NCBI GenBank assembly: GCA_000378025.1
Contig: KB899087.1
Location: 744,001 to 808,000 of the forward strand
Length of the DNA: 64,000 nt
Direction of reading: 5' to 3'
Origin: Xanthobacteraceae bacterium 501b
Lineage (GTDB): Bacteria; Pseudomonadota; Alphaproteobacteria; Rhizobiales; Xanthobacteraceae
Both the position numbers and the translations under genes were made by a program. Below the pieces are notes generated by a model. That model made no database searches and had not been told where the DNA came from. It saw nothing but the letters and a program-made list of their open reading frames with translations. Of the stretch, positions 9,413 to 44,594 are shown one piece after another (within the stretch, counting starts at the first letter, position 1; the number at the start of each line of letters is the position of its first letter).

Positions 9413-10705
9413 TCAGGCGGGGGAGGCCGCCGGCACATAGGCGAAGGCGGAAAGCGTTTCCGGCTTCATCTCGATGGAAAAGCCCGGCTGGCGCGGCGGC
9501 ATGTAGGCGGCATTCTCGATCACGCAGGGGTCGAGGAAATGCTCGTGCAGATGGTCGACATATTCGATCACCCGGCCTTCCTTGGTGCCGGAGACGGCGA
9601 CATAGTCGATCATCGACAAATGCTGCACATATTCGCACAGGCCGACGCCGCCGGCATGCGGCCAGACCGGCAGGTCGTATTTCGCCGCCACCAGCAGCAC
9701 CGCCAGCACCTCGTTCAGCCCGCCCATGCGGCAGGAATCGATCTGCACCACATCGATGGCGCCCTCGGCGATGAACTGCTTGAACATGATGCGGTTCTGG
9801 CACATCTCGCCGGTCGCCACCTTTACCGGCGCGATGGCTGCGCGGATCTTGCGGTGCCCGGCGATGTCGTCGGGGCTGGTCGGCTCCTCGATGAAGAAGG
9901 GCTTGGCGAAGGCGAGCTGGCGCACCCAGTCGATTGCCTGGCCCACCTCCCACACCTGGTTGGCGTCGATCATCAGATAGCGGTCCGGCCCGATCACCTC
10001 GCGGGCGATGGTGAGGCGGCGGATGTCGTCGTCGAGATCGCGCCCGACCTTCATCTTCACATGGTTGAAGCCGGCCTCGATCGCCTCCTGGCAGAGGCGC
10101 CGCAGCTTGGCGTCGTCATAGCCGAGCCAGCCGGCCGAGGTGGTGTAGCAGGCATAGCCTTCGCGTTCGAGACGCGCGATGCGCTCGGCCTTGCCGGCCT
10201 CCGCCCGGCGCAGGATCGCGAGCGCCTCGCCGCGGTCGAGCACGTCGGTGAGGTAGCGGTAATCGACAATGTCGGCGATCGCATCGGGTGGGAGATCAGC
10301 GACGAGGCGCCAGACCGGCTTGCCGGCCTGCTTGGCGAGCAGGTCCCAGACGGCGTTGACCACCGCGCCGGTGGCGAGGTGCATCGCGCCCTTTTCCGGG
10401 CCGATCCAGCGCAGCTGGCTGTCGCTGGTGAGGTGCCGCCAGAAGGCCCCGGGGGCGGCGCGCACCACGTCGAGATCCGCGCCCACCACGAGGTGGCGCA
10501 TGGCGAGGATCGCCATGCAGCAAATGTCGTTGCCGCGCCCGATGGTGAAGGTGAGCCCGTGCCCCTTCAGCGCCGGCTCGTCGGTGTCGAGGATGACATA
10601 GGCGGCCGAATAGTCCGGATCGGGGTTCATAGCGTCCGATCCGTCGAGCGCGTGCGAGGTGGGAAAGCGCAGGTCGATGACCCGCATATCGGTGATCTTC
10701 ACCAT
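9413..10705 (-). CDS. fucD: L-fuconate dehydratase (enolase superfamily)
   Basis: Mg2+-dependent dehydratase converting L-fuconate to 2-keto-3-deoxy-L-fuconate. The 430-residue product fits the family length. Visible active-site motifs are the KxK pair in HVKMKVG, metal ligands in MIDANQ, IEEPTSPDD and GEMCQNR, and the C-terminal His in WPHAGGVG. The segment KGAMHLATGAVVNAVWDLL is characteristic of fuconate dehydratases rather than other enolase-superfamily members. Last gene of the minus-strand fucose operon, followed by a hairpin terminator. The neighbouring hydrolase, SDR and lactonase genes support the assignment. Confidence 0.92.
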   Translation of the reverse strand: MVKITDMRVIDLRFPTSHALDGSDAMNPDPDYSAAYVILDTDEPALKGHGLTFTIGRGNDICCMAILAMRHLVVGADLDVVRAAPGAFWRHLTSDSQLRWIGPEKGAMHLATGAVVNAVWDLLAKQAGKPVWRLVADLPPDAIADIVDYRYLTDVLDRGEALAILRRAEAGKAERIARLEREGYACYTTSAGWLGYDDAKLRRLCQEAIEAGFNHVKMKVGRDLDDDIRRLTIAREVIGPDRYLMIDANQVWEVGQAIDWVRQLAFAKPFFIEEPTSPDDIAGHRKIRAAIAPVKVATGEMCQNRIMFKQFIAEGAIDVVQIDSCRMGGLNEVLAVLLVAAKYDLPVWPHAGGVGLCEYVQHLSMIDYVAVSGTKEGRVIEYVDHLHEHFLDPCVIENAAYMPPRQPGFSIEMKPETLSAFAYVPAASPA

Positions 10706-34808: not shown

Positions 34809-36308
34809 ATGACGGATCCGGTCCTCATCGTCGGGGCCGGCCCGGTCGGGCTGGCGATGGCGCTCGAACTGGCGCGCTACCAGGTGCCGGTGCGCATCGT
34901 CGACGCCATGACCGAGCGTGCCACCACCTCGCGCGCGGTGGCGATCTGGCCGCGCACGCTGGAACTTCTGGAGCGCGCCGGCGACGGGCTGTCCGCCGAG
35001 CTGGTCGGGCTCGGCAACAAGGTGACGGTGGCCAACATATTGGCCGACGGCAAGGCGCTGGCCCGGGTGCCGCTCGGCGACATCGAAACGCCCTATCCCT
35101 TTGTGCTGATGCTGCCGCAGAGCGAGACCGAGCGGGTGCTGCTGGCGCATCTGGAGGGGCGCGGCGTGCGGCCGGAACTCGGCATCTCGCTCGCCGACTT
35201 CACCCAGGAGGGGGAGACCGTCACCGCCACGCTGCACCATGCGGACGGGCGCGAGGAAACGGCGCGCTATGCCGCGCTGGTGGCCTGTGACGGCGCCCAC
35301 AGCCCGGTGCGCCATCATCTGGGTCTTTCCTTCGCCGGCGACACGCTGGGCAGCGACTGGGCGCAGGGCGATTTCCACCTCTCCGGCATGCCCTATCCGG
35401 TGAACGAGTTCGCCACCTGCCTGAATGCGGAGGGGCCGGCGGTGCTGTTTCCGCTGGCGCCCGGCCGCTACCGCGTCATTGTCGGGCTTGGTTCTCCCGA
35501 GGGTACTGGGTCTTCCGAAGGCGAGGCGCCCCCGCCGCCGCCCGACATGGCCGGCTTCCAGGCGCTGCTGGACCGGCGCGGGCCCGGCGGCATCGTGCTG
35601 CACGACACGCTCTGGTCGACCTCGTTCCGCATCAATGAGCGGCAGGTGGAAAACTACCGGGTCGGCCGCGTCTTCCTCGCCGGCGATGCCGCCCATGTCC
35701 ACAGCCCCGCCGGCGGGCAGGGCATGAACACCGGCATGCAGGATGCGGTGAACCTCGCCTGGAAGCTGGCTTTGGTGCTGCGCGGCCTCGCCACCGCGCC
35801 GGCGCTGCTGGGTAGCTACGACCCCGAGCGCCGGGCGGTGGGGGCGGAGGTGATCGCCACTTCCGGCCGGCTGACCCGGATGGCGACGCTGCAAAACCCG
35901 GTGGCCCGCCACATCCGCAACGCGGTGATGCACGTCATGCTCGGGCTGGCGCCGGTGCAGCACGCTCTGGAGGGCGAACTGACCGAGACCGCGATTCATT
36001 ACCGCGACAGCCCGCTCAACGGCATCTCCTGGGGCGCCGGGCCGCGCGCCGGCGATCGCGTGCTGCCGGCCGAGGGCGAGCCGCCCTATGGTGCCGGCGA
36101 CATGCCCCGCTTCACCCTGCGCGCCGGGCCCGAGGTGGGGCCACCGCCCGGCGCTCTGCCCGCCGCGCTGGTCGACCCGGCGGTGCGGCCGCACGAGGTG
36201 GCCGGCGGCATCCAGCTGATACGCCCGGACGGCTATCTCGCCATGGCGGTGGCGGAAGGGGAATGGGAGCCGATTGTCGCCTATCTCAGCCGGCTTGGAC
36301 CGGCCTGA
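34809..36308 (+). CDS. FAD-dependent aromatic-ring monooxygenase (phenol/PCP hydroxylase-like)
   Basis: Flavoprotein hydroxylase of the PheA/TfdB/RdmE group, using NAD(P)H and O2. The 499-residue product has the Rossmann FAD motif VGAGPVGLAMA near the N-terminus, the DG motif in VACDGAHSPVRHHLG, and the second FAD motif GDAAHVHSPAGGQGMNTGMQDAVNL. The C-terminal part is short and lacks the full thioredoxin-like domain of phenol hydroxylase. It starts at ATG 34809 and is followed after 17 bases by a cupin gene, so the two are likely one operon. Substrate unknown. Confidence 0.85.
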   Translation: MTDPVLIVGAGPVGLAMALELARYQVPVRIVDAMTERATTSRAVAIWPRTLELLERAGDGLSAELVGLGNKVTVANILADGKALARVPLGDIETPYPFVLMLPQSETERVLLAHLEGRGVRPELGISLADFTQEGETVTATLHHADGREETARYAALVACDGAHSPVRHHLGLSFAGDTLGSDWAQGDFHLSGMPYPVNEFATCLNAEGPAVLFPLAPGRYRVIVGLGSPEGTGSSEGEAPPPPPDMAGFQALLDRRGPGGIVLHDTLWSTSFRINERQVENYRVGRVFLAGDAAHVHSPAGGQGMNTGMQDAVNLAWKLALVLRGLATAPALLGSYDPERRAVGAEVIATSGRLTRMATLQNPVARHIRNAVMHVMLGLAPVQHALEGELTETAIHYRDSPLNGISWGAGPRAGDRVLPAEGEPPYGAGDMPRFTLRAGPEVGPPPGALPAALVDPAVRPHEVAGGIQLIRPDGYLAMAVAEGEWEPIVAYLSRLGPA

Positions 36309-36325: not shown

Positions 36326-36805
36326 ATGAGCGTGTCCTTCCTGTATTCGCGCGGCGACGAGCCGCCGATCAAGATCCCGGCCATCGGTCTCGACCTGTTC
36401 GTCCGCATGGCGCCGGCGATGAGCGGCGGCGAGTTCTGCTTCATCGAGACCATCAACGCCCCCGGCGCCGGCCCGCCGCGCCACCGCCACCGCGAGGCGG
36501 AGATTTTTCGCGTGCTCGAAGGGCGTTATCTCTACGAGGTCGACGGCCGGCGCTTCTTCGCCGATGCGGGCGACGTGGTGAGCATTCCCGGCGGCGCGGC
36601 GCATGGCTTCGTCAATGTCACCGACGCGCCGGCCCGCCAGTACATCCTCATGGCCCCGGCGCTGGACGCGGTCGCCTTCTTCACCGAGCTTGCCGGCGTG
36701 ATGCATGACGGCCTGCCCGACACCGCCGCGCTGAACGCTTTCGGGGCGAAATGGCAGGTGGAGTTCCTCGGGCCGCCGGTGCGCGCCAGCGACGGGGCGA
36801 CGTGA
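36326..36805 (+). CDS. cupin-domain protein
   Basis: Small single-domain beta-barrel protein, 159 residues, starting at ATG 36326 after GGGGAG. Metal-binding cupin motif 1 is in PPRHRHREAEIFRVLEG (His, His, Glu) and motif 2 is VSIPGGAAHGF. It lies 17 bases after the monooxygenase stop; such cupins often handle the hydroxylated product or act as quercetinase-like dioxygenases or isomerases, but its reaction cannot be named from sequence. Confidence 0.8.
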   Translation: MSVSFLYSRGDEPPIKIPAIGLDLFVRMAPAMSGGEFCFIETINAPGAGPPRHRHREAEIFRVLEGRYLYEVDGRRFFADAGDVVSIPGGAAHGFVNVTDAPARQYILMAPALDAVAFFTELAGVMHDGLPDTAALNAFGAKWQVEFLGPPVRASDGAT

Positions 36806-36834
36806 CCGGGCGCCGCGGCCTGCGCTTGGCGCAA

Positions 36835-36863
36835 TTGTGATGGCCGGGATTGCATGGTACTGT
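36835..36863 (+). promoter_or_regulatory. predicted promoter for the small peptide gene
   Basis: TTGTGA (36835-36840) and TACTGT (36858-36863) with a 17-base spacer, in a short AT-rich island. The predicted transcription start near 36870 falls only 11-25 bases before the candidate ATGs at 36881 and 36893. Confidence 0.5.
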
Positions 36864-36892
36864 AGAACCATCGAAATTTCATGGGGCCGGCG

Positions 36893-37096
36893 ATGCCGTC
36901 AAAAGGTGGGCGTGACCACATTCGACCCGCCGATTTGGCCGGTTCCGAGACGAGGCGGGCTGGCGCGCCTGAAGCATCTTTCGCCGCCCGTAAGAAGTGG
37001 TCGCTGCCTGTCCTGCAGGTCGAACCTCTGGCCCGGCTGACCGTGGCCGGCAGCTCGGCGGACCCGGGCGACGAGAATTGGTCAGGGGCGAGCTGA
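36893..37096 (+). CDS. candidate RiPP (lasso-like) precursor peptide
   Basis: A 67-residue peptide (71 if ATG 36881 is used) ending 72 bases before an asparagine-synthetase-like gene. Its C-terminal half reads KKWSLPVLQVEPLARLTVAG and then SSADPGDENWSGAS. This resembles the lasso leader pattern (aromatic-x-x-Pro-x-Leu, then a Thr two residues before the core). If cut after Thr-Val, the core would be 16 residues with an Asp at position 9, a workable macrolactam ring size. A promoter-like sequence lies just upstream; no ribosome-binding site is seen. No similarity could be searched. It could be a chance open frame. Confidence 0.45.
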   Translation: MPSKGGRDHIRPADLAGSETRRAGAPEASFAARKKWSLPVLQVEPLARLTVAGSSADPGDENWSGAS

Positions 37097-37168: not shown

Positions 37169-39061
37169 ATGAGGTTCCGCGGTTTCCTCGGTCTCGTCGA
37201 GTGCCAGGCTGGATGGCTGGCCCATCATGCCGGCGTGATCTCCGGCCTGCGGCGCTGGCGATTGGCGCAGACGCCCGGCGATTCACGGGGCGTGCTTCTG
37301 GCGCCGGGCGACGACGGCGCCCTTGCCCGCTCCGGTTCCTGGCTCATGGTGTGGCGAGGGCGGCTCCACAATCGGCGCGAGCTGGCCGATGACCTTGACC
37401 TTGACCCCGGCGCAAGCGCGGCGGCCGTTGCCGCCGCCGCCTTCCGGCGCTGGCGCGCGGAGGCGCCGGAGCGGCTTGTCGGGGAGTTCGCCCTGGCGGG
37501 ATACGACAGGGGTGAGCGGGAACTGGTGCTGGCCCGCGATCACATCGGCAGTATCGGCCTGTTTTTCCACCAGAGTTCCGGCGCGTGTGCCTTCTCCACC
37601 CATATGGGGGCGCTGCTGGACCTGCCCTTCGTCGAGCGTCGGCTGGATGAAAACCGCCTCGCCGACGATCTGCTGGGCAATGGCGCCGCCATGGATGGCA
37701 CGCTGTGGCAGGGCATCGACCGAGTCCCTTCCGGCGGGCTGGTGGTCATTCGTCCGGGAGCGGCCCGGCGCCGCGCCAAATACTGGCAGCCCGCGGCCTT
37801 GCCGCCGATACGCTTCTCCCGCGACGAGGACTATGTCGAGGCGGCGCGCGCGTTGCTCGACCAGGCGGTGGGAGACAACCTGCCCGCCGCCGGGCCGGTG
37901 GTTTGCGACGTCTCGGGTGGGCTCGATTCGTCCGCCGTGGCGGCGACGGCGGCGCGGCTGCGGCCCAACGAGGTGATCCACACGCTGACCCTGGTGCCAG
38001 CGGCGGGGCTGGCGCTGCCGACAAGGCCAGGCTGGTATGCCGACGAGCGCCCCTTCGTCGTCGCCCTCGCGGCCTGCTACCCAAGCATGCAGGCCGAATT
38101 CGTCGGAGACCGAGGCCCCGCGCTCATTGAGCGAGACCCGGACCGGCTATTCCAGCAGCTCGGCGCGCCGATGCGCAACACCAATAACGCCGCGTGGTTC
38201 GAACCCTCCTTTCATGCCGCCGCCGAGAGGGGCGCACAGATGTTGCTGACCGGCGGCCAAGGCAACTACTCCCTGAGCTGGAGCGGCATGGGGCGGTTGG
38301 CCGAGGAAGCGGCCGCCGCGCGCTGGCGCGTGCTGTGGCACGAGTTGCGCGCAATCGCCGCAAAAGCAGGGGGCACGCCGCTCGGCCTCCTCATGAATGA
38401 CGTGGCGCGCTATCGTCATCCCCGGCTGCATCGGCTTTACGAGGCGATGCGCGGGCGCGGCGGCGAGGCTTCTCCCGCCTCGCCCATCGCGCCGGATTTC
38501 GCGCGCGACACCGGCGCGATGGCGCGTCTTCAGGCCCGCGCCGCCGCCGCGAGGCATCTTTACGCGCAGGGTGACAGGTCACGCCGGCTCGACGTGTTCC
38601 AGGCCGCGGAGCGGGACCGGGACCACGCGCTGGCCTATCAGGATGCGCTGGGTTCGCGCCGGATTTCCCCGCTCTTCGATCGTCGCCTCATCGAGTTCTG
38701 TCTCGGTTTGCCGGCGGACCAGTTCCTGCGCAACGGACAGACCCGCTCCTTCGCGCGCCGCGTGCTGGCCGACCGGCTGCCGCGCGAGGTGCTGGAGAAC
38801 CAGCTCCGGGGCGCCCAGTGCCCGGAATGGTTCTACCGGCTCGATGCCCGGCGCCATGACCTCGCCGAAACGGTCAGCCGGCTCGAAGCCTCCGCGCTCG
38901 CCCGGCACTGCCTGGACGTGCCGAGGCTGCGCAAGCTCCTCGACGCCTGGCCGGCCGATGCCGCTGCGGCGCAGGCCCGCTGGTCGGACTACCACACCGT
39001 CTTCGGCCGTGGCCTGCATGTCGGGCAATTCCTGATGGCGGTGGAGGCCGGCCGGCTCTGA
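37169..39061 (+). CDS. asparagine synthetase-like protein (lasso-cyclase-like), no glutaminase cysteine
   Basis: 630-residue protein with an N-terminal Ntn/class II amidotransferase-like domain (about 1-200) and a C-terminal ATP-pyrophosphatase synthetase domain. The PP-loop SGGLDSS is at residues 249-255 (VVCDVSGGLDSSAVA). The obligatory Cys2 of glutamine-using AsnB is replaced by Arg (MRFRGFLG), so it should not use glutamine as nitrogen donor. Such proteins include lasso peptide cyclases (McjC type), which adenylate an Asp/Glu side chain. The peptide gene upstream supports this reading, but no B-type leader peptidase is in the window. An orphan asparagine synthetase-like role is the alternative. 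Confidence 0.75.
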   Translation: MRFRGFLGLVECQAGWLAHHAGVISGLRRWRLAQTPGDSRGVLLAPGDDGALARSGSWLMVWRGRLHNRRELADDLDLDPGASAAAVAAAAFRRWRAEAPERLVGEFALAGYDRGERELVLARDHIGSIGLFFHQSSGACAFSTHMGALLDLPFVERRLDENRLADDLLGNGAAMDGTLWQGIDRVPSGGLVVIRPGAARRRAKYWQPAALPPIRFSRDEDYVEAARALLDQAVGDNLPAAGPVVCDVSGGLDSSAVAATAARLRPNEVIHTLTLVPAAGLALPTRPGWYADERPFVVALAACYPSMQAEFVGDRGPALIERDPDRLFQQLGAPMRNTNNAAWFEPSFHAAAERGAQMLLTGGQGNYSLSWSGMGRLAEEAAAARWRVLWHELRAIAAKAGGTPLGLLMNDVARYRHPRLHRLYEAMRGRGGEASPASPIAPDFARDTGAMARLQARAAAARHLYAQGDRSRRLDVFQAAERDRDHALAYQDALGSRRISPLFDRRLIEFCLGLPADQFLRNGQTRSFARRVLADRLPREVLENQLRGAQCPEWFYRLDARRHDLAETVSRLEASALARHCLDVPRLRKLLDAWPADAAAAQARWSDYHTVFGRGLHVGQFLMAVEAGRL

Positions 39062-39088: not shown

Positions 39089-39895
39089 TCACGGCCGGTC
39101 CGCCTCGGGGGCCGCCATGTCGGGCAATTCCTGGCGGCTGGGCGGGGCGAGCGCCGGCAGCGGAAGGGCGAGAAGCGCCTCCCAGGGATCGGCCTGCGTG
39201 CTGACGATCTCATAGGCGCGCCGCACCGGCATCTGGTCGTAAAGGGCGTGGTATCCCTCCGGCACGGCCTCGCGACGGACCCGGTAGAGCGCGTCGCTGA
39301 CATTGGCGATGGCCAGCGCCCGGCGCGCCTCGTCACCGGGGAGGCCGGCATGGTCGCGAAGGCGGTCCACCGCCGCGCCGGCATCGGAGAAGTAGAGCGC
39401 GTGCGGAACGAGAAGGGTGCGGGCACGCAGTTCCGGCACCTCGTGGACGAGCAACTGCGCCAGGGCGCGGTACTGGTAGGGAAAGCGATACAGGAAGCGC
39501 AAAACCCGCGCCGGCTGACTTTGCGCCTCCAGCCCGGGAGCGTCGAAGACCAGCAGTGACTGGGCGATCTCCAGCGGATGCCGGTAGGGTATGAAGAGGC
39601 GGGCGCCCTCGTCGCGCATGCGCCGCCACTGGCCGGATCGATCCGCCGCCAGCATTCCGCTCAGGCTGAGCTTGGCGGCCCGCCCGTCCAGGGAGCCCAG
39701 CCGCTCCAGCACGTCGGGTTCAAATCCCCGTGCCAGCAATGGGGGATCTTCGAGATATCCCCTGGGATTGGCGGCGATGGGAAGGGAAGGGCGCTCGCGT
39801 CGGCCCACCCAGGCCATGCCAAGAATATCCAGCGTCTGCATCAGCAGTGACGATCCCGTTCGGGGATGGGCGAGAACGAGGCAGGCATCCTTCAT
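39089..39895 (-). CDS. sulfotransferase-like P-loop protein
   Basis: 268-residue protein with a PAPS-type phosphate-binding loop near the N-terminus (LAHPRTGSSLLMQTLD, about 8-23) and a plausible 3'-phosphate site in IPYRHPLEIAQSLL, as in Stf0/NodH-like sulfotransferases. It converges with the AsnB-like gene (27-base gap) and is divergent from the tail-collar gene. Acceptor is unknown; modification of the peptide product or of a glycan are both possible. Start ATG 39895 has no strong ribosome-binding site. Confidence 0.7.
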   Translation of the reverse strand: MKDACLVLAHPRTGSSLLMQTLDILGMAWVGRRERPSLPIAANPRGYLEDPPLLARGFEPDVLERLGSLDGRAAKLSLSGMLAADRSGQWRRMRDEGARLFIPYRHPLEIAQSLLVFDAPGLEAQSQPARVLRFLYRFPYQYRALAQLLVHEVPELRARTLLVPHALYFSDAGAAVDRLRDHAGLPGDEARRALAIANVSDALYRVRREAVPEGYHALYDQMPVRRAYEIVSTQADPWEALLALPLPALAPPSRQELPDMAAPEADRP

Positions 39896-40160: not shown

Positions 40161-43100
40161 ATGGCTGAAGCCTATATCGGCGAGATCCGCATGTTCTGCG
40201 TGCCGCCGGATCCGTCGGGCTGGCTCCCCTGTGACGGGCGGGCGCTGCCTGTGGCAAATCTGTACCTGGCGCTGTTCTCCTTGATCAGCACGACCTATGG
40301 CGGGGACGGGAAGAACTCTTTCAATCTTCCCGATCTGCGCGGACGGGCGGCGCTGGGGCGGGGCATCGCTTCGACCACCGTGCTCGGCTATGCCGGCGGC
40401 ACGGAATTCGTCACCCTGGCCGCCGACCAGCTGCCGCAGCATACCCACCAGCTTCGCTTCGCCGACGGCGCCGGAACCTCGCCCGTGCCGACCGGATGCC
40501 TGCCCGCGCGCGCGACGGCTGCGCCGGATGGCGACCAGCCCCTGCTCTATGACCTCCCACAGGACAATTCGCCGACCACCACCCTCGATCCGGAAACCGT
40601 CGGCGTCACGGGTGGGGGGGCCGCCCACAGCAATCTCCAGCCGTCCTTCGTCATCGGCTACTTCATCGCGATCGCCGGTGCCTATCCGCCGAGGCCAGGG
40701 GAGATCGAGGCGGCACCGGCGCCGGCTGCCGTCATTGTGGCGCCGAAGCCGGCGGCTGGTGGCTTTGTCGGCGAGGTCCGGCTCTACGCCGGATTGCACG
40801 CCCCCGTTCCGCAGGGCTGGGCGCTCTGCGACGGGACCGAACTGAAGGTGTCCGACTACACGGCGCTCTTCAGCGTGATAGGCACGATCTTCGGCGGCAA
40901 CGGCTATTCGACCTTCAATCTGCCGGACATGCGCGACCGCACGGCGGTGGGGCTCGGCAACGGTCCCGGATTGACGCCCCGGCCGACAATTGGCGCGACC
41001 TTCGGCGAGACGAACGTGCAGCTCACATACGGACAGATGCCGCCGCACACGCATGCCTTCAACGTGCTCACCTCTGCCGCCACGATGGAATGGCCGACCC
41101 AGGGCGTCATGTACGCGCAGGCGCAGAGGTTCCTGTTCTACCAGGGGCCATCGACCCAGGCGTTCCGCCGGCTCGCCATGGCCCCCCGCGCGCTCAGCCA
41201 GGGCGACACGCAGAGCGGCCTCCACAACAACATGATGCCGTCGCTGGCGCTGTACTACATCGTCTGCCTCAACGGGATCTATCCCACTCCGGGCGTGGCG
41301 CCGCGCGTCTCCAGCGTTTCGCCGCCCGGCGGGCCGCCGGTGCCGCCCGCCGGGCCGGATGCCGGGGAGGAACCGGGGGGCGGGCTCCAGGTGACGATAA
41401 GCGGCACCGACCTGTCGATTGCGGGCGCGGCGCCGTCCGTCACTTTCGGCGGCACGCCGGCACATCTCGACAGCTACAGCGCGAGCGCCGTCGTCGTGCA
41501 ATGCCCGCCCGGAAACGGCACGGTGATGGTGGAGGTCACGACCGCCAACGGGTCGAGCCAGCCCAATGCGGGCTGCCAGTTCAGCTACCTGCCCTCGGTC
41601 ACGGGCCTCTTCCCCGCCAGCGGCTCGCCCTCCGGCGGCGCCAACGTTACCGTCAAGGGCGTCGGCTTCAACAGCGCCACCGCCGTGACCTTCGGCAGCA
41701 TCGCGGCGGCCGGGTTCCAGGTTCTCGACGGCCATACGCTGCTGGCCACCACGCCGCCGCAGCTTGCGGCGGGATCGAGCGTGCCGGTCACCGTGACGGC
41801 GGGCGGCGCGACCTCGGCGGTGACACCGGCGTGCCGCTACGCGCTCACCTCGCTGTTCATCAGCGTATCGCCGGGATTCGGCCCGGCCGCCGGCGGCAAC
41901 ATGGTGACGATAACGGGGACCAATTTCGACCCGAACCTCGACAGTTTCGAGGTCTGGTTCGGCACGTCGAAGGCCACGGACGTCACCATCGTCAGCCCTA
42001 CCGAGATCACTGCGGTGGTGCCGCGCGGCGTCGGTGTGGTGGAGGTCGCGGTGGGCAGCGCGGCTTCCGCCAGCACGGGCGTTGTCGCGCGCTACAGCTA
42101 TGCGGCGATCCTCTCGGATTTCAGCCCGAAACACGGCAACTTCGCCGGCGGAACCAGCGTGACCCTTACGGGCGAGAACTTCGACCCGGCCTCTACCGTG
42201 CTGTTTGGCAGCGTGAAGGCGACGCCCGCTCAGGTCACACCGACCCGCATCGTCGTGACGGCTCCGGCGGGGACCGTGACGGCGCGGCTCAACGTGTCCG
42301 GTCCGGGCGGGGCGAGCACCGATGCCCACGAGCTTCCGCCCTTCAGCTACCTGCCGCAGCTCGACAGCCTCTCCCCCAGCGTCGGCACGCCGGTGGACGA
42401 CCCCGCCGTAACGCTGAGCGGCAGCAACTTCACGCCCGATGCGACGGTGAGCTTCGGCGGGGTGGCGGCGAGCCTTTCCTCGATCTCCGCCACCCGTATC
42501 CTCGCTGTGCCGCCCAATGGTACGGCCGGCGCGACGGTGGACGTCACCGTCACCACGGGTGGCGGGCGCAGCGCGGCGCGCGGCTACACCTACGCCCAGC
42601 TGGCCGTGACGGGCCTGCAGCCGGCGGCCGGGCCGCCGGGAACGGTCGTCACCATCGCCGGCATCGGCTTCGGCAGCAGCCCCGCCGTGCTGTTCGGGAC
42701 GGAGGCGGCGAAACAGGTGACCGTGAATGCCGCGGGCACCGAAATCGTCTGCGTCGCACCGGGCGGCATCGACGACGTGAATGTCTCGGTGACGGCCGGA
42801 GGCAACATCAGCCCGACGGTCAAGGCCAGCCGCTACAGCTACGCGCCGATCCTCCACGCCATCTCGCCAGACGCCGGGATGCCGCCGGCGGAGATTGTCC
42901 TCACGGGCGAGGGCTTCATGGTCTTGCGGCCTTACGGACAGCCCGACATGGTCGTGAAGTTCGGCGCGACCCAGGCCTCGATCCTGACCTCCACCACGAC
43001 CTCCGCGACCGTCGCCGTGCCCTCCGGCGCCGGCCGGGTGCCGGTGCGCGTGGGCACCGCGGGAGGGAAAAGCAATCAGGTCAGCTTCACCTATGTGCCG

Positions 43101-43880
43101 GCCGTGCTCTCGGTTTCCGCGCCCTACGGGACGGAGGGGAGCGTCGTCCGGATTGCCGGCGCCGGGCTCGGAAGTCCCCTCATCGTCAAGAATGTGCGAT
43201 TTGGGAGCGTTGCCGCCGCACAGGCGTGGACCGAAGGAGACGAAACCGTCTTCGCGCAGGTGCCCGCCGGCACCGGCGTGGTGCCGGTCATCGTCACCAC
43301 ATCGGCCGGCACCACCGCGGCGTGGAGCGGCGCCATGTTCGCCTATGCCCCGGTGGTGGACGCGGTTTCGCCGGCTGGCGGGCCGCCCGCCGGAGGCACG
43401 GTGGTGACCCTCACCGGCAGCGCCTTCACTGGCGCCACCTCCGTCACCTTTGGCGGCACGCCGGGCCTCCGCCTGAAGGTCGTGAATGACGGGCAGCTCA
43501 CCGTCACCACGACGCCCGGGGTCGGCGAGGTCGATGTCACCGTGCATCTGCCGAAGGCCCGGAGCGGGTTGAGCGAAGGCAGCACCTTCACCTTTGGCCC
43601 GGAGATCCGGGCTCTCTCGCCCGCCAGCCTTTCCATCCAGGAAACCGGGCGGGTGGTCATCACCGGCGAGGGGTTCCAGCGGATCCGGTCGATTAATTTC
43701 TGCGGCATCGAATATGACTGGGCCTCGCAGGGGGACCTGTGGGCGCCGGCGGCGACGGACCCGTCGCGGCAGATCTATATCGCTGTCAGGCCGCCATCGG
43801 GCGGGCCCGGCACCTATTCCGTCACCGTCACCACCGCCTATGGCACAAGCGCGCCGGCCAGTTTCGTCTGGACGAGCTGA
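40161..43880 (+). CDS. tail-collar and IPT/TIG multidomain protein
   Basis: 1239-residue protein. Two phage tail-collar domains (microcystin-dependent protein type) lie at about 5-60 (AYIGEIRMFCVPPDPSGWLPCDG, given here by residue) and 198-255 (FVGEVRLYAG, GWALCDGTELKV), each followed by a collar-associated segment with HTH motifs (QHTHQL, PHTHAF). Residues about 385-1235 are roughly ten IPT/TIG immunoglobulin-like repeats, each with a P..G...GGT.VT..G.NF pattern and an FG..A strand. There is no signal peptide or membrane segment. Probably a fibre-like surface or secreted protein; export route unknown. Start ATG 40161 follows the octamer repeat, with a weak ribosome-binding site. Confidence 0.85.
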   Translation: MAEAYIGEIRMFCVPPDPSGWLPCDGRALPVANLYLALFSLISTTYGGDGKNSFNLPDLRGRAALGRGIASTTVLGYAGGTEFVTLAADQLPQHTHQLRFADGAGTSPVPTGCLPARATAAPDGDQPLLYDLPQDNSPTTTLDPETVGVTGGGAAHSNLQPSFVIGYFIAIAGAYPPRPGEIEAAPAPAAVIVAPKPAAGGFVGEVRLYAGLHAPVPQGWALCDGTELKVSDYTALFSVIGTIFGGNGYSTFNLPDMRDRTAVGLGNGPGLTPRPTIGATFGETNVQLTYGQMPPHTHAFNVLTSAATMEWPTQGVMYAQAQRFLFYQGPSTQAFRRLAMAPRALSQGDTQSGLHNNMMPSLALYYIVCLNGIYPTPGVAPRVSSVSPPGGPPVPPAGPDAGEEPGGGLQVTISGTDLSIAGAAPSVTFGGTPAHLDSYSASAVVVQCPPGNGTVMVEVTTANGSSQPNAGCQFSYLPSVTGLFPASGSPSGGANVTVKGVGFNSATAVTFGSIAAAGFQVLDGHTLLATTPPQLAAGSSVPVTVTAGGATSAVTPACRYALTSLFISVSPGFGPAAGGNMVTITGTNFDPNLDSFEVWFGTSKATDVTIVSPTEITAVVPRGVGVVEVAVGSAASASTGVVARYSYAAILSDFSPKHGNFAGGTSVTLTGENFDPASTVLFGSVKATPAQVTPTRIVVTAPAGTVTARLNVSGPGGASTDAHELPPFSYLPQLDSLSPSVGTPVDDPAVTLSGSNFTPDATVSFGGVAASLSSISATRILAVPPNGTAGATVDVTVTTGGGRSAARGYTYAQLAVTGLQPAAGPPGTVVTIAGIGFGSSPAVLFGTEAAKQVTVNAAGTEIVCVAPGGIDDVNVSVTAGGNISPTVKASRYSYAPILHAISPDAGMPPAEIVLTGEGFMVLRPYGQPDMVVKFGATQASILTSTTTSATVAVPSGAGRVPVRVGTAGGKSNQVSFTYVPAVLSVSAPYGTEGSVVRIAGAGLGSPLIVKNVRFGSVAAAQAWTEGDETVFAQVPAGTGVVPVIVTTSAGTTAAWSGAMFAYAPVVDAVSPAGGPPAGGTVVTLTGSAFTGATSVTFGGTPGLRLKVVNDGQLTVTTTPGVGEVDVTVHLPKARSGLSEGSTFTFGPEIRALSPASLSIQETGRVVITGEGFQRIRSINFCGIEYDWASQGDLWAPAATDPSRQIYIAVRPPSGGPGTYSVTVTTAYGTSAPASFVWTS

Positions 43881-43979: not shown

Positions 43980-44594
43980 ATGGACGCCTATGTCGGCGAA
44001 ATCCGCGCCTTCGCCTTCGGTTTCGCTCTGGACGGCGAGGCCTGCACCTGGCTTCCCTGCAATGGCGCTGTCCTGTCGGCGAGACAATATCCCGTTCTCT
44101 ACGCCGTCATCGGCATCGCCTTCGGCACGCAGGGGACAGACACATTTTGCCTTCCGGATCTGACCGGCAGGGTGGCGATCGGTGCGCGGAACAACATGAA
44201 CGACGCCGGCTATGTCGTCGGCCAACGGGTCGGCGAGGATGACGTCACGGTGCACTCCGTTCCCGCCCATCGCCACACGGTGGAGGGAAAGGTGGTTATC
44301 TCCGCGCCCTATGCCGGGCTCAGCGACGAGCCTTCCCCCACCCGCTGGCTCTCGCGGCCGACCCGGCTGAATGCCCAGAACAGCCTCAGCGCCGGCACCA
44401 TTTCGCGGGCCTATGGCCCCCCCGGCGCGGCGCCGGAGCGCAACACCTTCGACAACCGCACCCTGACGCCGGTGGGCGGGACGGCGCAGCCGCATGAGAA
44501 CAGGCAGCCCTATCTCGCGATCAATTACTGCATTTGCGCGAAGGGCCTGCTGCCGTACCACACAAGCGGGGCCGCGGCACCGGAGGCGGTTTAA
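43980..44594 (+). CDS. tail-collar domain protein (MdpB-like)
   Basis: 204-residue single-domain protein of the microcystin-dependent/tail-collar family: [45 protein letters not shown], and a C-terminal [14 protein letters not shown], the typical end of these proteins. Starts at ATG 43980 with GGAGAG upstream. It lies 99 bases after the large collar/IPT gene on the same strand and is likely co-expressed. Function of non-phage members is not established. One of only two genes called here ending in TAA; the SOS box of recA begins 18 bases later. Confidence 0.88.

Follow-up and report, generated by a model that had tools for sequence, protein, structure and literature searches.

A probable lasso-type precursor and cyclase pair in Xanthobacteraceae bacterium 501b, with B1 and B2 proteins likely acting in trans

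A small gene and the AsnB-like gene that follows it in Xanthobacteraceae bacterium 501b probably encode the precursor and the cyclase of a lasso-type peptide, the maturation proteins B1 and B2 being supplied in trans; we regard this whole model, built on sequence comparisons, as likely. The window is the whole stretch of 64,000 nucleotides that was analysed, and positions are counted from its first letter. The features to which we refer are the following.

36893..37096, plus strand: putative lasso-type precursor gene, 67 codons plus stop, recognized by its frame and by the family of like peptides beside homologous cyclases
ATG 36881, plus strand: alternative start of the precursor gene, giving 71 codons
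36998..37015, plus strand: leader motif W-S-L-P-V-L, which corresponds to YxxPxL of lasso leaders, with Trp replacing the usual Tyr
37046..37093, plus strand: predicted core AGSSADPGDENWSGAS, after cleavage behind Thr-Val; it ends in Ser and, counted from the Trp, has its Thr at W+14 and its acid at W+24
37070-37072, plus strand: codon of Asp9 of the predicted core
37169..39061, plus strand: putative lasso-type macrolactam cyclase of the AsnB-like kind, 630 aa, with a VSGGLDSS loop and without Cys at residue 2
39089..39895, minus strand: Sulfotransfer_3-like protein (SULT3), possible tailoring enzyme, by its homologue beside the L047 cyclase
40161..43880, plus strand: two phage-tail-collar domains and then about nine TIG domains, 1239 aa; the G016 homologue is kept without an adjoining cyclase
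43980..44594, plus strand: single phage-tail-collar protein beside recA, 204 aa
36806..44610: cassette between the cupin gene and recA, missing whole from G026, G013 and G028; breakpoints at 36802 and 44611/44612

The 67-residue frame of the original prediction can be read in the sequence from ATG 36893 to 37096. Its peptide contains KKWSLPVLQVEPLARLTVAG as claimed and ends in KKWSLPVLQVEPLARLTVAGSSADPGDENWSGAS, and a cut behind Thr-Val yields the 16-residue AGSSADPGDENWSGAS, whose position 9 is Asp. The leader motif of lasso precursors is given as YxxPxL (PMC10368454, accessible part); the aromatic-x-x-Pro-x-Leu form is present here as W-S-L-P-V-L, with Trp for Tyr, and with the predicted cleavage point the leader has a penultimate Thr and the core an acid within positions 7-9. 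This sequence is naturally read as a 16-residue core with Asp9, Asp6 being the other candidate ring acid. The small gene is very probably a real frame encoding a lasso-type precursor. Its GC content by codon position is weakly gene-like (0.69/0.63/0.72; 0.76/0.54/0.84 for the cyclase), no NCBIfam or Pfam model matches the peptide, and no near copy of it was found. The near-consensus promoter proposed upstream did not hold up: TTGTGA (36835) and TACTGT (36858), 17 bases apart, are present but match the sigma-70 consensus at only 4/6 and 3/6 positions, 7/12 in total, and with no site of at least 9/12 in a scan this candidate was dropped. As for the AT-rich island said to surround it, the GC content is indeed lower, but mildly so (63% at 36806-36892 versus roughly 67-75% in the surrounding 500-base windows).

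The AsnB-like gene expected downstream lies at 37169-39061 (Asn_synthase, E 3e-26), and its product has Asn_synthase and GATase_7 domains. The best NCBIfam match is the lasso cyclase model NF033535, with 197 bits for a cutoff of 525; this model was matched by all 14 cyclases scanned. In an alignment of 14 of the 22 cyclases the VSGGLDSS loop of the window protein is intact and the columns invariant in the 14 homologues are kept. With the start used here there is no Cys at residue 2; several homologues have an early Cys, and the missing residue is therefore no family trait. A PDB search with the cyclase family profile returned hydroxyamidotransferase, beta-lactam synthetase and asparagine synthetases. 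In a tree built without L098, L103, L117, L118 and L119, the window cyclase falls into a group with 13 others (95/92 support); its own branch is long, and the nearest sequences by path are the cyclase of L047 and the second cyclase of L086. Among 151 relatives, 87 show a cyclase match at E 0.001 and 13 a strong one (E<1e-40; the next is at 1e-26), and four strong cyclases are found in G016. A wider search (5 of 397 genomes, three candidates scored in each) detected strong cyclases in G319 and G421, both outside the co-occurrence test described below; a B2-like frame adjoins the G319 cyclase and none was seen in 4.7 kb of G421.

We then looked for homologues of the small frame beside orthologues of the 37169 gene, as the original prediction had proposed; they were found, which favours the peptide. 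In other alphaproteobacteria, small ORFs beside cyclase homologues share a K/R-x-W-x-x-P leader, a Thr 13-14 residues after the Trp, a ring acid and a C-terminal Ser, and the same pattern is present in small frames flanking many of the strong cyclases, for example KPRWETPVIEVAPLHSAEANNSGSTDSGVSS at the second cyclase locus (L037) of the window's own genome. Scanning genome contigs with a profile from a three-member cyclase alignment added 20 loci, among them loci of Azospirillum, Sphingomonas, Tistrella, Ferrovibrio and Altererythrobacter. The motif search was confined to Trp-type motifs directly preceded by K or R, and gave 88 distinct bare-motif matches in 216,576 bases around cyclases versus 50 control matches, some listed twice, in 208,510 bases. 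The bare motif is thus frequent by chance in GC-rich DNA, and we rejected it as evidence for a precursor when taken alone.

A set of 29 ORFs was drawn from the 88 candidates by position only (cyclase strand, outside the cyclase, Trp codon -450 to +130 bases from the start of the cyclase frame), with the acid, Thr and Ser unused in the choice; it includes four spurious-looking ORFs (the second of L046, L048, the second of L050 and the first of L087). An acid at W+22 to W+24 is present in 22 of the 29 (9.2 expected) and a Thr at W+13 or W+14 in 16 (5.8 expected), values reached in none of 20,000 shuffles, and 25 ORFs end in Ser (4.0 expected). The single position W+23 gave a weaker signal (9/29 with an acid, 3.5 expected, p 0.005), because the family has two acid registers: with the Thr or Ala placed at -2, many of its acids fall at core 8, and the acid is at core 9 in the window precursor, in TRTCGGGSDSFPGWCATAS of L047 and in TRTCGTGSDSFPGWCAAS of L086. 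These last two predicted cores, from different genomes, are near-identical, with Asp9 and two Cys, and lie beside SULT3-type genes, the one from L086 at its second cyclase. The Trp and Pro are kept in 21/21 precursors, which were hand-chosen with the motif in view. A ring acid is missing from the peptides of L095 and L099, and in 10 of 42 cyclase stretches no plausible Trp-type precursor was seen by eye near the cyclase (L042, L048, L056, L082, L090, L096, L097, L100, L102 and L103). Taken together, the small frames, with their Trp/Pro leader, a Thr near -2, an acid and a C-terminal Ser at near-fixed places, support the lasso-leader reading of the window peptide.

The statement that no B protein is nearby is correct locally, since neither a PqqD nor a PF13471 gene lies near the 37169 cyclase. 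The implied minimal RiPP locus, working with no B at all, is not supported: B2 is encoded 1.87 Mb away and co-occurs with the strong cyclase, and the second cyclase locus of the genome holds a lasso-like B1 and an HPr-kinase-like gene. From these comparisons, the local lack of B appears best explained by B1 and B2 acting in trans. PF13471 has one strong match in the window's genome (G000:C1:2650107), which passes the lasso B2 model with 94.5 bits for a cutoff of 33. PqqD gives two matches, of which one passes the PQQ model and the other (G000:C1:1566286) belongs to the second cyclase locus, at a distance of 0.79 Mb; the best model of the latter is lasso_PqqD_Bac (59 bits, cutoff 80), and its closest PDB entries are the lasso PqqD chaperone 9x90 (3e-11) and TbiB1 (2e-9).

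A strong B2 (E<1e-18) is found in nine of 30 congeners (G000, G002, G006, G009, G013, G016, G023, G026 and G028), and a strong cyclase in exactly the same nine. Over 151 relatives, both are present in the same 13 genomes. The Fisher values, nominal and ignoring kinship, are 7e-8 for the 30 congeners and 5e-19 for the 151 relatives. Weaker PF13471 matches (5e-9 to 8e-12) are present in five other relatives (G001, G011, G020, G022 and G132). All nine B2 congeners also have other cyclase loci or the second type, so the window pair need not be one that uses B2.

In eight of the 30 congeners, which we count as one event, the B2 gene is an orphan whose place is conserved: a GntR-type regulator lies on one side and an ABC transporter on the other, and no cyclase, B1 or kinase was found around it. 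In seven congeners that have no B2 at this place, the similarity stops at the regulator. The Cys and His motifs are kept in the seven orphan copies checked; the eighth, L075, was left out of the model, because the gene called there was too short and did not cover the frame. In G006 the B2 gene lies within a lasso locus. B2 most likely left a lasso cluster once, in an ancestor, to judge from this in-cluster B2, to which the orphans are closer (58%) than to any other B2 outside their set (at most 37%), and from the G006 cyclase, which branches off first in its group of eight. Whether the ABC transporter next to the orphan B2 is an exporter reserved for lasso peptides was also considered, and the idea was rejected: the permease is present in 25 of the 30 congeners, of which 16 are without a strong B2 and have it placed elsewhere.

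Two further observations concern B2-like genes. At G026:C17 4286-4629, in L046, such a gene is matched in two overlapping frames and is for that reason probably broken; this genome also has the orphan B2. In G009 and G026, L112 (8619, 9105 and 9527, minus strand) and L113 (7812 and 8266, minus strand) contain tandem small ORFs beside PqqD- and B2-like genes. They follow the pattern MKKPYVPPMV.PTVRL.SAS...VPVSG.P.VPP, with long Pro runs; most of their cores have no Asp or Glu, the window-type cyclase family was not found in these stretches, and they possibly represent another RiPP type.

The pair belongs to a larger unit. The original prediction was silent on the SULT3-like gene and the two collar genes, which are present or absent together with them. 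The cupin gene and recA, separated by 7.8 kb in the window, are adjacent in G026, G013 and G028; G009 and G002 lack the cupin gene as well, with junctions at 36303/36304 and 44611. At the same site G016 retains the collar-TIG and collar genes (66% DNA identity) with no cyclase, and G023 has kept one collar gene and the remains of a collar-TIG gene; both cases speak for an older presence of the cassette. The tail-collar domain PF07484 is found in nine of the 30 congeners; since these are the nine with strong cyclase and strong B2, the collar genes seem tied to the lasso system. Our guess is that the collar protein would be a secreted fibre-like partner or carrier.

Profile searches were extended to the 42 cyclase stretches, whose lengths vary, so that absences are soft. 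They detected an HPr-kinase-like gene in 33, a PqqD-like B1 in 30 and B2 in 8 (the two-frame gene of L046 uncounted), besides Sulfotransfer_1 (23), collar (17), GNAT (13), DUF6916 (10) and SULT3 (3: the window, L047 and L086); neither B1 nor B2 was found in 12, the window among them. The kinase motif pattern matches 11 of 17 kinase-like proteins. The window SULT3 protein itself has no Pfam or NCBIfam match; its homologue beside the L047 cyclase matches Sulfotransfer_3 at E 2e-5 (25.5 bits, below the cutoff of 27). A module of about three tandem tail-collar genes with GNAT, often with DUF6916, recurs divergent from or beside the cyclase in L037, L040, L050, L051, L053, L055, L056 and others. 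L114 (G002:C1:3550000-3566000) has a precursor-like frame, WETPALTVTSAADAEFDNTNPGDGSFIS, with its Trp near 9577 on the minus strand, surrounded by B1, kinase, sulfotransferase, collar, GNAT and DUF6916 genes; no cyclase was found in these 16 kb, and the same contig carries a strong cyclase about 70 kb away, which belongs to another branch.

How the pair would work, once expressed, can be proposed with the order of reactions carried over from known lasso peptides, in which B1 and B2 have their roles in maturation (PMC8498205, accessible part). The product of 36893-37096 would be a lasso-type peptide, threaded or at least a macrolactam. Its leader K-K-W-S-L-P-V-L would be bound by the PqqD-like B1 supplied by the second, fuller locus, and cut after Thr-Val by the B2 protease of the lone gene, which probably departed from a lasso cluster in an ancestor. 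ATP-dependent activation of Asp9 by the cyclase would follow, and its bond to Ala1, the N terminus freed by the cut, would close a ring of 9 residues and leave a tail of 7. The calculated mass of this Ala1-Asp9 product is 1488.575 Da, against 1506.586 Da for the linear core. The HPr-kinase-like enzyme of the second locus, which would be used in common like B1 and B2, likely has the conserved C-terminal Ser as its target, and the adjoining sulfotransferase-like protein may be a second tailoring enzyme, sulfating the product; the calculated masses are 1568.542 Da with the phosphate and 1568.532 Da with the sulfate.

Might precursor and cyclase instead be a silent or decaying fragment whose product is no longer made? 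The missing B1, B2 and kinase, the long branch of the cyclase, the sites of G016 and G023 with only collar genes or remnants, and the weak codon bias of the peptide would all fit this explanation. We nevertheless consider it unlikely, as the cyclase is open over 630 aa with its loop and invariant columns intact, the precursor retains the Trp, Pro, Thr, acid and C-terminal Ser, and B1 and B2 are present elsewhere in the genome. It is still less probable that the cyclase is independent of leader removal by B2, a general protease cutting the precursor and the cassette being self-sufficient. The strong B2 present in every strong-cyclase genome among the 151 argues against such independence, whereas the 12 of 42 stretches (of differing lengths) without B1 and B2 would agree with it, as would a paper on pseudomycoidin whose title, the part available, announces synthesis without leader and leader peptidase. 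That the peptide ORF is a chance frame before an unrelated AsnB-like amidotransferase we find hardly credible: the position-only statistics across cyclase loci and the cores TRTCGGGSDSFPGWCATAS and TRTCGTGSDSFPGWCAAS, near-identical in two genomes and adjoining the cyclases that are closest by path to that of the window, outweigh the frequency of the bare motif with a short tail (the 50 control matches in 208,510 bases, some listed twice) and the lack of a family model matching the peptide.

Maturation in trans thus remains the preferred reading. If it is true, a core lasso leader peptidase is common to several cyclase loci. Strong cyclase, strong B2 and collar genes coincide exactly over the 30 congeners, so that the sharing of one leader peptidase can be put to a direct test, and this coincidence also links a RiPP with proteins that are more familiar from phage tails. 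A bolder version, in which one expelled orphan B2 serves all cyclase-precursor pairs of a genome and the peptides act with the secreted collar proteins, for example as a fibre-tip cap or ligand, is possible, if doubtful. Since the precursor is unmatched by models, the cyclase is under the cutoff and the protease is usually alone and far away in the genus, searches for complete clusters would tend to miss such scattered systems. In the open-access literature searched we found no account of a dispersed lasso system with a lone protease and collar genes, nothing pairing a lasso peptide with a tail collar, and nothing joining at least five of the six terms lasso, phage tail, HprK, PqqD, sulfotransferase and gene cluster. 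In Pontixanthobacter-type genomes, clusters with lasso B2, PqqD, sulfotransferase, asparagine synthase and tail fiber genes have been linked to halotolerance (PMC10040529); the accessible part of that paper treats the asparagine synthase as an osmolyte enzyme and contains no joint lasso reading of these clusters.

Among known systems, the paeninodin type (A, C, HPr-like kinase K, B1 and B2) has the same enzyme classes as the homologous loci, and its kinase phosphorylates the C-terminal Ser (PMC8498205 and PMC9266682, accessible parts). That Ser is conserved there and also ends the window core, which fits a kinase target. In a Priestia record a cyclase, a paeninodin-family peptide, a PqqD chaperone, B2 and an ABC transporter stand in a row. 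The window set, in contrast, is without kinase, B1, B2 and transporter, has sulfotransferase-like and tail-collar genes, carries Trp for Tyr in its leader, and has a cyclase below the family cutoff. The window pair may work like the paeninodin type; we do not class it as a member because the cassette has no HPr-kinase-like gene, the genome having one at its second locus. A sulfotransferase gene is known from some Firmicutes lasso clusters (PMC8498205, in the part available). The BsfA type, as far as the accessible part of PMC10368454 describes it, resembles the cyclase-linked family in its PqqD-like B1, its kinase, its acid at core 8 and a non-Thr residue at -2, as in the Ala(-2) precursors; it differs in that the BsfA cluster is complete, the leader has Tyr and phosphorylation is on a ring Ser. 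Dispersal itself has parallels in the portions available of two papers: the citrulassin deiminase (PMC8498205) is an unclustered maturation enzyme, there a tailoring enzyme and here, on our reading, a lasso leader peptidase, and the unclustered lanthipeptide proteases (PMC8960859) act on another peptide class, with the maturation enzyme encoded away from the precursor, as it would be here.
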